Source: Candidatus Kaiserbacteria bacterium
Lineage (GTDB): Bacteria > Patescibacteriota > Minisyncoccia > Phycocordibacterales > UBA918
Direction of reading: 5' to 3'
Assembly: GCA_020428795.1 (NCBI GenBank)
Contig: JAGQME010000006.1
Coordinates: 1 to 33,028, forward strand
Length of the DNA stretch: 33,028 nt
Shown piece by piece: positions 1,624 to 30,810 of the stretch; within the stretch, counting starts at the first letter, position 1; every line of letters begins with the position of its first letter. Both the position numbers and the translations under genes were made by a program. The notes beneath the pieces are model-generated. The model was not told where the DNA came from. It ran no database searches and saw only the letters and a program-made list of their open reading frames with translations.

Positions 1624-2511
1624 TGTCTTTTTATGGAATCTGTCCTATATATAAAGACAAAATACAATGATTGAGATTTGCTCAAGTTAACTGCAAAATA
1701 TAAATACTAGAATAGTGAATATCGTGACCAACGTCTTTCACCTTGTCTTTTAACAAGGTTGTCCTCTATCATTGACTGTAACTCTCTTTGAATTGTCTTT
1801 TCACTACAGTCCGTAATAATATCAGAAATGTCTTTTATAGTAGCTTCTCCTTTAGCTTCAATAATCGTCTGAATTCTAGAGCGTCTATCAGCAGTAGCCG
1901 ATACGGTGGTAGTTTTGTTTGGTGTAGTATCGCTATCTTTTTCGGTGGCTACGAGACCCTTAGTAACTGATGTTTTTCGACTACTAATTCTAGCTCTCGC
2001 CGACTCTTCACCAAAGCTAAAGAAGCTTTCATCTGCTTTCTTTTCTTCCACTAAGTAGCTACGCAAACCACGGAGGACAGTGTCTATTTCAACCACTACT
2101 GCTCGCAATACTTCAGGAGCAATTAGCGGGGTAGCTGCCGACACCCTAAAGGTACTTTCAAGGGCAATCAATGACTGAGCGAATTGTTCCAAAACTTCCC
2201 GACTAGCCGATCGCTTAACCTCTAAAGTCCTGAGGGAATGTTCATGGACTAAGTGTGCCTTGCTGGCAATATTACTGACATGAGTTTCTGTCTTTTTGTC
2301 TGATTCGACATTATTCAAAATATAAAAGACAACAGTGACAATTTTCTCTGTCTTTTTAAAAATATACTTATAATAGTTCTCGTCTTGGACCAGCTTTTGA
2401 AAGTTTATGTCGTTAAATGAAATGTCTTTTGTATTCATAGTATCTGTCCTTTATAAAAGTTGAGCTGACATATCGGACAAGTTATTTGTACTATATACTT
2501 TTCTGTCTTTT
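1624..2511. repeat. Eight copies of TGTCTTTT within and around the winged-helix gene
   Basis: Exact copies start at 1624, 1744, 1794, 1829, 2289, 2349, 2423 and 2504, all in the same orientation on the plus strand (AAAAGACA on the coding strand). Inside the gene they fall in all three codon phases (for example K-D in TIKDI, K-T in EKTIQ, K-R in VKRQG), so they are not just one repeated amino-acid word. Related sites are a TGTC...GACA pair at 1641-1659, TGTCCTTT at 2445, and TGACATATCGGACA at 2466-2479. Confidence 0.6.
1707..2438 (-). CDS. Winged-helix (DeoR-like HTH) protein, probable autoregulated transcription factor
   Basis: A 243-residue protein. The last 55 residues (about 188-243) have the look of a winged helix: RRSRIQTIIEAKGEATIKDI, then SEKTIQRELQSMIEDNLVKRQGE as recognition helix and wing. 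The N-terminal 135 residues are mainly helical and may form a dimerisation or sensor bundle; a Ser/Thr/Lys-rich linker (about 145-185) joins the two parts. The ATG at 2438 has a good ribosome binding site (AAAGGA, 8 nt upstream). A promoter (TTGTCA, 16-nt spacer, TATAGT) lies at 2490-2517 and is overlapped by TGTC/GACA half-sites, which suggests the protein controls its own expression. The ligand and other targets are unknown. Similar HTH proteins are common in Parcubacteria but no function is assigned here. Confidence 0.8.
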   Translation of the reverse strand: MNTKDISFNDINFQKLVQDENYYKYIFKKTEKIVTVVFYILNNVESDKKTETHVSNIASKAHLVHEHSLRTLEVKRSASREVLEQFAQSLIALESTFRVSAATPLIAPEVLRAVVVEIDTVLRGLRSYLVEEKKADESFFSFGEESARARISSRKTSVTKGLVATEKDSDTTPNKTTTVSATADRRSRIQTIIEAKGEATIKDISDIITDCSEKTIQRELQSMIEDNLVKRQGERRWSRYSLF

Positions 2512-2524
2512 TGACAACTAGACA
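2445..2524 (-). promoter_or_regulatory. Promoter and candidate operators of the winged-helix gene
   Basis: Read on the minus strand: -35 TTGTCA (2517-2512), 16-nt spacer, -10 TATAGT (2495-2490), expected start near 2483, leader about 45 nt. TGTCTTTTTGACA (2504-2516) overlaps the -35 box. TGACATATCGGACA (2466-2479) lies just downstream of the start. TGTCCTTT (2445-2452) overlaps the ribosome binding site. Spaced TGTC/GACA half-sites at these places fit repression by a dimer; that step is inference. Confidence 0.55.
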
Positions 2525-2633: not shown

Positions 2634-4880
2634 ATGGCGAAGCGAAAAGCAAGAAAAAATGATAAAAATCGGGAACCACTTTTTAATGATATCTCACCCC
2701 ACGCTAAACAATCTATTGGAGCCCTAGCTATGGGATCACTGGGTGTTTTCTTCTTACTTTCACTTTTTAATTACGCCGGTATGGTCGGCGATTGGACCAA
2801 ACTGACTCTCACCTACCTCTTTGGCGGCGGAGCTTGGTTGGCTCCGATACTGTGTGGTTTTTTTGTTTACGCCTTTTTGAAACCAAGAGAAGATAGCCAA
2901 AAAATAAGCACCTCCAAAATCTCCGGCATCATATTTATGTTTCTTTCAGCCCTTACCCTTTTGGAGATATATAAGGTCGGGGCTGGTGGCAAACTAGGTT
3001 GGTTGATTGAAGCTCCACTTAGTTACCTAATCAAAGACGTGGCGACATCGGTTTTTGCTTTAGCCTTCTTTGGTACAGGGATTTTCTTAACTTTTAATAC
3101 CGGTCTCAAAATGCCGACCTTCTTACGTAAACGTGAGCTTAATAAAGAAGCAGACGACACTATTGATGACGAGGATTTTGATATACCCCTAGAAGCCGAG
3201 GAAGAACAAGAAGCGGAAGAAGAGACCGACGATGAAGAAAAACCGGCCGAAAAATCAGGTAAGAAAAGTGTGACCGAGAGACTTGGTCTAACCAAATCCG
3301 GTAGTGATGATTTTGTGGTCAGTAACTTTGTAGGCACCTACGACGCTCCCCCTCTATCACTCCTTGGTAAAGACAGGGGCAAAGCTAAGACCGGTGACAT
3401 AAAAGCCAACGCCAATACTATTAAAAGAGTTCTAAAAGAATTTGGTATCAACGTAGAGATGGACACGGTCGAGATTGGACCGACCGTGGCCCGTTATGCT
3501 CTAAAACCAGCCCAAGGGGTGAAGATTTCAAGAATTGTCGGTCTACAACGAGAACTAGAACTAAATCTAGCCTCCGGCACAATTCGTATCGAAGCCCCTA
3601 TCCACGGCAAGTCACTGGTTGGTATTGAGGTACCAAATGTAGAAAAAGCTAATATCGGTCTAGCCTCCCTTCTCTCATCCCCAGAGTACACTGACTCACC
3701 AAAACCACTCTTTGTGGCCCTTGGTAAAGACATTACTGGTCACGTACATTTTGCCAACATCGCCCGAATGCCTCACGCCTTGATTGCCGGTACCACTGGC
3801 TCCGGAAAATCAGTCGCTATTCATAACGTCATAATCTCTCTCCTTTTCCGCAACAGCCCTGAACAGCTACGCTTCATAATGATTGACCCGAAGCGTGTAG
3901 AACTTACCCTTTACGATGGAATTCCTCACCTACTATCGCCGGTCATCATAGATGCCAAAAAAGCTCTAATGTCACTGAAGTGGGCAGTAAAAGAAATGGA
4001 ACGACGTTACGATATATTGCAGGCTGAAAAAGTACAAAATCTAGATTCCTATCACAGTAAAATCTACCAACCGGCCAAAGCAGCTTGGGAGAAGAACGGT
4101 GAACAAGAGGAAGAAAAACAAAACCTACCCGAACCACTTCCCTACATCGTGATAGTGATGGATGAATTGGCCGATTTGATGCACAGCTACCCTAGAGAGC
4201 TTGAGGCCTTGATTGTGCGTCTAGCACAGATGAGTCGAGCGGTGGGAATCCACCTAATCTTGGCCACTCAGCGCCCATCGGTAAACGTTATTACCGGTAC
4301 CATTAAAGCTAATATTCCAACCCGAATTGCTCTTCAAGTGATTTCACAAATAGACTCCCGCACCATCCTCGATCAACCGGGGGCCGAAAAACTGCTTGGT
4401 AAAGGTGACATGCTCTTCCTCTCTGGCGAGAGTAGCAAGCCAACCCGTCTTCAATCAGCCTTTATTTCTGAAGATGAGATTAAAAACGTGGTTAATTATC
4501 TTAAAAAACAAGCCGACGCCCACGAATTAGACTGGATTGATCTTGAACCAGGGGCTGGCGCCGGTGACAACAGTATCTTTGGCACCAGTGTAGATGATGA
4601 CGATGACGATCTTTATGAAGACGCTAAACAAGCCGTCAAAGAAGCCGGTAAAGCTTCGACCTCATATCTTCAGCGTAAGCTTCGGATTGGGTATTCCAGA
4701 GCCGCTCGCCTAATAGATATGTTGGAAGAACGGGGCGTAATTGGTCCCCAAAATGGCTCTAAAGGTCGAGAAATATTAGACGAAGCGCCTGATGATGACG
4801 AATATGGGGATACTGAGGATGACAACGAATCAAATGAGGACTACGATGAGACAGAAGATAATGAATTGAACTATCGCTAA
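2634..4880 (+). CDS. ftsK: DNA translocase FtsK/SpoIIIE
   Basis: A 748-residue ATP-driven double-stranded DNA pump that clears chromosomes from the division septum. About four membrane segments lie in residues 27-165. A short, very acidic linker follows (about 172-205, rich in Asp/Glu), much shorter than the E. coli linker. The alpha/beta motor domain has Walker A GTTGSGKS at 386-393 and Walker B ending in DE at 510-511 (IVIVMDELADLM), then ATQRPSVNVITG. A C-terminal winged-helix gamma domain lies near 658-715 (YLQRKLRIGYSRAARLIDMLEERG), which in the family reads KOPS/SRS-type DNA signals. The tail is again very acidic. The next gene starts 6 bp downstream, and recA follows, so the three probably form one operon ending at the terminator at 6475. 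Confidence 0.97.
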   Translation: MAKRKARKNDKNREPLFNDISPHAKQSIGALAMGSLGVFFLLSLFNYAGMVGDWTKLTLTYLFGGGAWLAPILCGFFVYAFLKPREDSQKISTSKISGIIFMFLSALTLLEIYKVGAGGKLGWLIEAPLSYLIKDVATSVFALAFFGTGIFLTFNTGLKMPTFLRKRELNKEADDTIDDEDFDIPLEAEEEQEAEEETDDEEKPAEKSGKKSVTERLGLTKSGSDDFVVSNFVGTYDAPPLSLLGKDRGKAKTGDIKANANTIKRVLKEFGINVEMDTVEIGPTVARYALKPAQGVKISRIVGLQRELELNLASGTIRIEAPIHGKSLVGIEVPNVEKANIGLASLLSSPEYTDSPKPLFVALGKDITGHVHFANIARMPHALIAGTTGSGKSVAIHNVIISLLFRNSPEQLRFIMIDPKRVELTLYDGIPHLLSPVIIDAKKALMSLKWAVKEMERRYDILQAEKVQNLDSYHSKIYQPAKAAWEKNGEQEEEKQNLPEPLPYIVIVMDELADLMHSYPRELEALIVRLAQMSRAVGIHLILATQRPSVNVITGTIKANIPTRIALQVISQIDSRTILDQPGAEKLLGKGDMLFLSGESSKPTRLQSAFISEDEIKNVVNYLKKQADAHELDWIDLEPGAGAGDNSIFGTSVDDDDDDLYEDAKQAVKEAGKASTSYLQRKLRIGYSRAARLIDMLEERGVIGPQNGSKGREILDEAPDDDEYGDTEDDNESNEDYDETEDNELNYR

Positions 4881-30752: not shown

Positions 30753-30810
30753 ATTTTAACACCTAAAAAAGCCTCCACCAAAAGACAAACCAAATCGCCT
30801 GTGTCATAAT
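30753..30810. promoter_or_regulatory. Divergent promoters of the CYTH-dcd-HIT-thyA operon and folA
   Basis: On the minus strand TGTTAAAAT (30761-30753) would start the CYTH operon with an 18-nt leader. On the plus strand TGTCATAAT (30802-30810) lies 6 nt before the ATG of folA at 30817, which implies a leaderless mRNA. An AAAAGACA word (like the motif around the winged-helix gene, one copy only) lies at 30780-30787. Confidence 0.5.

Follow-up and report, generated by a model that had tools for sequence, protein, structure and literature searches.

The locus raises the question of why a single 8-base motif is repeated so densely in and around one gene, and what the repeats do. The window, that is, the whole stretch of DNA analysed (33,028 nucleotides), contains ten copies of TGTCTTTT, nine of which lie within 1624-2511 and the remaining one at 30780, while dinucleotide shuffles of the whole window yielded a mean of 2.49 copies and a maximum of 8. 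In its genome (G000; 855,644 bases in 44 contigs), 72 copies were counted against 44 for the reversed-pattern control, and outside the cluster no 900-bp stretch held more than two when the genome-wide list of copies was read by eye. Given the copy rate outside the cluster, a Poisson model puts the chance of at least nine copies in 888 bp at about 6e-17. The original prediction had described a motif far above chance, which the shuffles and the Poisson figure confirm, as does the density elsewhere in the genome, with 9 of the 72 copies falling in 0.9 kb. It had also counted eight exact copies in one orientation; the eight on the plus strand are indeed exact, but a ninth, inverted copy lies on the minus strand.

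The site array and the encoded protein

The cluster extends over a gene on the minus strand (1707-2438), established from its open reading frame, translation, structure model, structure comparison and orthologues. Its 3' flank holds one TGTCTTTT site at 1624-1631 on the plus strand, obtained by motif search, and the inverted pair TGTCCTATATATAAAGACA at 1641-1659, to which no strand is assigned. Within the gene, plus-strand copies occur at 1744-1751 (VKRQG codons), 1794-1801 (EKTI codons; AARGACA at the same column in 25 of 44 orthologues), 1829-1836 (KDI codons; 37 of 44), 2289-2296, 2349-2356 (KKTE codons; 33 of 44) and, across the first codons, 2423-2430. By arithmetic on their coordinates, these six fall in all three codon phases, as had been claimed. 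The reversed copy on the minus strand occupies VVFY codons at 2324-2331, with TGTCYTT at the same column in 9 of 44 orthologues. Further upstream, TGTCCTTT at 2445-2452 on the plus strand, reading AAAGGACA on the minus strand, stands directly before the ATG and therefore overlaps the Shine-Dalgarno-like AAGGA, so that the paired site predicted for the ribosome binding site is present. Another TGTCTTTT copy (2504-2511, plus strand) is located between the hexamers of a promoter-like pair, TTGTCA-16-TATAGT, at 2490-2517 on the minus strand (-35-like TTGTCA at 2517-2512, -10-like TATAGT at 2495-2490), which was recognized by consensus match only (10/12). Beyond it, an open reading frame at 2634-4880 on the plus strand, which we take from its sequence to be ftsK-like, starts divergently, and a similar divergent start was seen by eye upstream of several orthologues. 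An Rfam search returned one tRNA in stretch L055 and nothing in the window.

It can be observed that the array accompanies the gene throughout the family. Within the gene and 250 bp on either side, as far as contig ends allowed, at least three TGTCYTT sites on either strand were found at 46 of 46 family loci, two of them with truncated genes; the check on orthologue surroundings thus favours the original prediction. The truncated genes (L049, L051) were left out of the 44-gene counts, and L009-L016 and L018 were dropped before counting as duplicates of L001-L008 and the window. At the 44 loci, with a median of 8 sites each (3-11), density was 7.3/kb in coding sequence, 9.2/kb in the 200 bp upstream, 5.9/kb in the 150 bp downstream and 0.43/kb in the flanking rest. 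When synonymous codons were shuffled within each gene, 234 sites were observed against 80.5 +/- 6.4 expected, with a maximum of 101 in 1000 shuffles, pooled figures which overstate independence because orthologues share ancestry; taken singly, 38 of the 44 genes displayed an excess significant at 0.05 and 6 did not. Against the same shuffles, AAAGACA/TGTCTTT was the most over-represented 7-mer of all. Coding-strand AARGACA reached 199 against 71.4 expected (2.8-fold) and TGTCYTT in the opposite orientation 35 against 8.8 (4.0-fold), whereas the corresponding ratios in 105 neighbouring ORFs were only 1.27 and 1.21. AAAGACA alone was approximately two-fold over expectation in the neighbouring genes (34 vs 16.7), and the reversed control ACAGRAA was two-fold over in the gene itself (29 vs 14.4). 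Since both orientations are enriched, the signal is not that of a strand-specific RNA, and an RNA signal was rejected for this reason.

Beyond the family, 22 loci from nine other families of the order gave AAGGACA/TGTCCTT as the top 7-mer (73 vs 18.7), at TGTCYTT densities of 7.2/kb in coding sequence, 11.4/kb upstream and 0.30/kb in the rest; no downstream excess was present at these 22 loci, with 1 site in 3.3 kb. Altogether, the loci in which arrays were read represent 17 families of the order. Twenty control loci from other classes, found via the winged helix, carried 0-3 sites each, with no comparable enrichment; in some of these, the reported domain match was not the winged helix, and the whole ORF was taken as the matched one. 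The array is under selection as DNA, in both orientations. It covers promoter, coding region and 3' flank and is kept around orthologues, as expected of the spread array of binding sites that had been proposed. Two regular layouts were considered and rejected. A palindrome of fixed spacing, AAGGACA-N6-12-TGTCYTT, is confined to 13 of the 49 family genomes, and the unit is therefore a single site rather than one palindrome. Helical phasing gave no clean period in the adjacent-site spacings when judged by eye, and the peaks at 24, 35, 37 and 56 bp resemble conserved codon positions.

The product of the gene is a single-copy winged-helix protein of 243 residues. An AlphaFold2 model from nine orthologues (mean pLDDT 75, pTM 0.50) predicts a four-helix bundle at approximately 20-135 (helices at 20-43, 51-72, 80-100 and 108-138), a low-confidence linker at 133-178 and a winged helix at 178-243. 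In this model the C-terminal domain has a winged-helix fold, residues 178-243 superposing on many winged helices with Z of approximately 10-11.7 and rmsd of 1.1-2.8. The superposition on Zalpha (Z 11.7, rmsd 1.1, 62 residues) had made Z-DNA binding a candidate, but MarR, FeoC and LmrR types reach Z of about 10, and the domain was treated as a generic winged helix. Pfam and NCBIfam returned only weak matches, all in the C-terminal part (TrmB, HxlR, DeoR, ArsR), PHROGs only weak winged-helix matches, and a PDB-sequence search no match. No ParB-type DNA-binding domain was found, Pfam giving weak winged-helix and other HTH matches only, and neither Pfam nor NCBIfam matched any domain of LexA type, the S24 peptidase included. 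Conservation along the protein is highest at the winged-helix residues, and K202, D203, K214, T215, Q217, R218, R236 and W237, among which are helix and wing positions, are invariant in 25 sequences.

Regarding the N-terminal bundle, superposition of this one model (pTM 0.50) on Avd and S23-type bundles gave a VIA Z of 15.0 both with Avd 8ub8_C (rmsd 2.0, 111 residues, 14% identity) and with 2rld_B, where Z of approximately 13 is the level named for helical bundles in the structure-comparison output; Foldseek alone gave no match with E < 0.001. PF05635 was not matched at E<=1 among the Pfam matches listed for 9 family members, and profile-profile comparison revealed no similarity to five PF05635 proteins from relatives (hhalign E 0.056, probability 1%), so that the Avd-type bundle is a shared fold at most. 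The protein would probably multimerise via this bundle.

Of the 49 family genomes, 46 have an orthologue, always as a single copy, and orthologues were found in 256 of the 297 genomes of the order, representing 149 of 166 genera. In a sample of the phylum, 70 of 286 genomes gave a match; beyond the class, most matches comprise the winged helix alone, in proteins of approximately 330-370 residues with another N-terminus. Several of these other-class proteins, presumably Fic-like, end in a similar winged helix (SEDTVLRDLKSLL..GSTKSSRYEL) and carry no TGTCYTT array (L307, L308, L311, L313, L320 and others). In one genome placed outside the class, a related protein (L255, G518:C65) has 7 TGTCYTT in gene and flanks.

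The motif at the putative origin and elsewhere in the genomes

The same motif recurs at a second place. One of several other places with paired TGTCCTTT sites in the genome of the window is C10:43994, in an intergenic region that also contains parS-like palindromes and DnaA-box-like repeats. The pattern GTTTCAYRTGAAAC, which we take to be the parS consensus, was matched in 39 of 49 family genomes and clusters at one place per genome among the matches listed. Thirty parS loci were anchored on the best DnaA-box group, the motif being ignored in the choice of anchor, and 90 of the 105 TGTCYTT in these loci were located within approximately 600 bp of parS sites. TGTCYTT stands exactly 6 bases before the first DnaA box in 21 of the 30 loci, rising to 26 when TGTCC or TGTCYY variants are included, and a second DnaA box follows at +26 in 23 of 30, with at most two mismatches. 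The typical origin composite consists of TGTCCTTTATCCACCTATCCAC, four bases and then GTTATCCACA. TGTCYTT is also present near parS without an abutting box and is thus not simply the edge of a DnaA box.

Across the order, the exact 14-mer TGTCCTTTAYMCAC was matched 49 times and its reversed pattern 5 times; the 49 matches come from 48 of 297 genomes, leaving 249 of 297 without it, a figure which covers the exact form only. Sites resembling parS were present near TGTCCTTTAYMCAC at 25 of the 30 loci read, while one of the 49 matches (G009) lies beside the protein's own gene and not at the origin. The +6/+26 spacing was found again in several families, for example as TGTCCTTTATACACATATCCCCAGAGTTATCCACAG (L223, L224). 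The exact composite occurs in 44 of 256 genomes with the detected protein and in 4 of 41 without it (Fisher p 0.36); as its frequency is alike in both, co-occurrence does not link protein with motif. No composite is present in two families whose sampled genomes, 14 in total and a small number, all lack the protein: neither f25 (G072, G150, G201, G239, G270, G295, G318) nor f86 (G133, G191, G231, G263, G290, G313, G334) has a detectable orthologue or an exact origin composite. Near parS-like sites in L216, L240 and L241, TGTCCTTTA or TGTCYTTTA forms a close, iteron-like direct repeat of three (offsets 0, 18-19 and 30). Clusters of TGTCCTT/AAGGACA with a DnaA-box-like sequence were also observed at L055 2635-2704 (G000:C10:34134-34203) and at G019:C1 ~98960-99000, 6-10 kb from the parS/oriC place in each genome, flanked by genes which we take to be exonuclease III-like and CCA-adding-enzyme-like.

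In ten genomes from ten genera, TGTCCTTTA occurs 102 times, as does its reversal, so there is no over-representation and only its placement is unusual. By our own count, the gene accounts for 28 of the 102 (from nine loci, G237 being left out) and the vicinity of parS for 26, the latter in eight of the ten genomes; G153 and G097 have second motif clusters without parS. On the 227-kb contig of G019, the densest place is the array, with 9 sites in 1.2 kb, and the next-densest lies 6 kb from parS. On this contig, parS is located at 92-93 kb, and the cumulative GC skew declines to approximately 95 kb, fluctuates, and climbs beyond 135 kb. For G050, a single contig of 981,549 bases with a TGTCYTT background of 0.33/kb, the skew of sampled stretches is negative to 72 kb, positive from 96 to approximately 450 kb and negative from 500 kb, and parS, DnaA boxes and TGTCYTT occur together at 83-84 kb, within the 72-96 kb switch. 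A constant distance between array and origin was considered and rejected: the first three genomes gave 101-125 kb and others 69-181 kb, the second cluster of G153 being roughly opposite the gene. At the 9 gene loci examined, no parS-like site was found and DnaA-box-like matches were scattered, the array motif being TGTCYTT and not DnaA boxes. The alternative that had been put forward, a partition- or origin-like array, consequently divides: the partition site finds no support, because canonical parS sites exist elsewhere in the genomes and none is present at the gene loci that were read, and the array itself is not an origin, but the same motif does abut DnaA boxes at the putative origin. Taken as a whole, the earlier reading of a spread operator or origin-like array is partly supported.

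Within stretches L055-L124 of the window's genome, 101 of 123 motif matches lie inside ORFs and 22 outside, with no clear theme of a wider regulon among them beyond the origin-linked places. In L062 (1244-1399; G000:C12:7743-7898), AAAGACA-N7-TGTCTTTT stands just downstream of one gene, presumably umuC-like, and AAAGGACA-N9-TGTCCTTA beside a TATAAT-like box upstream of another, which we assume to encode a putative surface protein. An SOS/LexA-like regulon, prompted by the sites near umuC-like and exonuclease III-like genes, was rejected, as no peptidase was matched and most of the recurrent sites are at the origin. An ORF that we take to be dnaA-like is present on the same chromosome.

Explanations for the shared motif

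The motif shared by the gene and the putative origin suggests an undescribed protein tying origin control to its own gene. The reading that we favour, with somewhat better than an even chance, is that of an undescribed core DNA-binding protein of this order of Patescibacteria, which would bind oriC and its own gene, the latter serving for autorepression and as a dosage-linked sink. The C-terminal winged helix would recognize single TGTCYTTT sites and be connected by a flexible linker to the N-terminal four-helix bundle of Avd-like fold, which probably brings several subunits together. One binding place would be oriC, where TGTCCTT is followed, beside parS, by two DnaA boxes at fixed spacing (+6, +26) and abuts the nearer one; the other would be the array of approximately 8 sites on the promoter, coding sequence and flanks of the gene. 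Occupation of the promoter and ribosome-binding site would repress synthesis of the protein, the array could tie free protein to replication as a dosage-linked sink, and through the level of free protein, origin activity or origin architecture might be coupled to replication. The encoded protein is the presumed binder because the array follows this gene and not its neighbours and because helix and wing residues are invariant. Autorepression is suggested by the overlap of sites with promoter-like hexamers and the ribosome-binding site, while titration and an effect on initiation are proposed by analogy with datA and UBP/ucm. More tentatively, and with somewhat less than an even chance, the protein may be a second origin-recognition protein, ancestral to the whole order, which marks oriC together with DnaA via the fixed TGTCCTT-DnaA-box composite. 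Its own coding sequence would be kept as a site reservoir; a single piece of DNA would then serve as gene, message and titration locus, and the free level of the protein would be coupled to replication of the gene.

A plain autoregulator, with a long operator at its own gene only and the TGTCCTT at oriC belonging to another factor or to DnaA recognition, is unlikely. Sites overlapping the promoter-like hexamers and ribosome-binding site, a density that is highest upstream (9.2-11.4/kb) and the lack of a broad regulon, most own-genome matches in the stretches read being inside ORFs, would all accord with it; however, repression would not need sites throughout the coding sequence and, within the family, in the 3' flank as well, and the same 7-mer stands beside DnaA boxes at fixed spacing. 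This spacing, which points to initiation, also tells against a nucleoid or segregation factor, for which the array and the oriC sites would seed a condensed nucleoprotein complex of a centromere-like or Noc-like kind instead of controlling initiation. Such a factor would suit the multi-site array, the sites among parS, the predicted fold like that of a multimer-forming family and the divergent ftsK-like neighbour, but a separate canonical parS is already present and the protein is without a ParB-like domain, and we consider this explanation distinctly improbable. That another protein binds TGTCYTTT, the gene being a mere location of sites, is more doubtful again: the array follows this gene in the families read, the winged-helix residues are the protein's most conserved part, and other-class proteins sharing the winged helix alone have no array, against which stands the composite in 4 of 41 genomes without detected protein. 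An artefact of composition or codon use (Lys/Asp/Thr-rich coding) or an mRNA-level signal, to which the predominance of AARGACA on the coding strand and the two-fold excess of AAAGACA in neighbouring genes might point, can hardly be credited, since synonymous shuffles preserving protein and codon use yield one third of the observed count, the opposite orientation is the more enriched (ratio 4.0), and sites also occur upstream and at oriC.

The favoured reading of an origin- and self-binding protein would yield a testable oriC consensus for one order and turn an unannotated, near-universal protein into a candidate origin factor, and the array provides an unusual case of a coding sequence under selection as a set of binding sites. 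The two families without detectable protein, f25 and f86, are natural test cases for how a genome manages without it. In the open-licence full-text literature, no paper evidently on replication-origin control (origin, DnaA, ParB, skew) in Patescibacteria, Parcubacteria or the candidate phyla radiation was found, and nothing further came from searches for the Avd fold or for transcription factors of Patescibacteria. Control of chromosome replication in these small, mostly uncultured bacteria appears little studied.

Relation to known systems

Plasmid iteron initiators and Vibrio RctB are winged-helix proteins with binding repeats both at the origin and in the promoter of their own gene. The present case resembles them in its winged helix and in repeats at both places, but differs in the DnaA boxes within the composite, the dnaA-like gene on the chromosome and the sites throughout the coding region. 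Avd, a pentamer that acts together with a reverse transcriptase, lacks a winged helix. Likeness to the Avd and 23S rRNA intervening-sequence (PF05635) bundles is confined to the predicted N-terminal fold (Z 15.0, rmsd 2.0, 111 residues); unlike these, the present protein has no Pfam match to the family, an hhalign probability of 1% and a winged helix. ParB-parS partition differs in that the array loci have no parS palindrome and the protein no ParB-type domain.

In E. coli, datA is an off-oriC cluster of DnaA sites that can act as a sink, and the dnaA gene is repressed through DnaA boxes (PMC5835720). As with datA, a cluster outside oriC shares its type of site with oriC, TGTCYTT occurring both in the array at the gene and beside the DnaA boxes and parS. 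Unlike datA, the array is made up of TGTCYTTT sites, not of DnaA boxes; it covers the gene of a protein other than DnaA, coding sequence and surroundings included, and titration is here proposed by analogy. Sulfolobus UBP is reported to be a non-initiator protein that binds the conserved ucm element in origins plus other genomic sites (PMC12141716). The two are alike in having a candidate non-initiator DNA-binding protein, a separate conserved element in the origin and sites elsewhere, but UBP/ucm is archaeal with hundreds of genomic sites (PMC12141716), whereas the recurrent sites here are mainly those of the protein's own gene and the origin region. The protein, motif and in-gene array match no family compared here, and, judged from sequence, the system would work as a regulator that is associated with the origin and has its own titration site.
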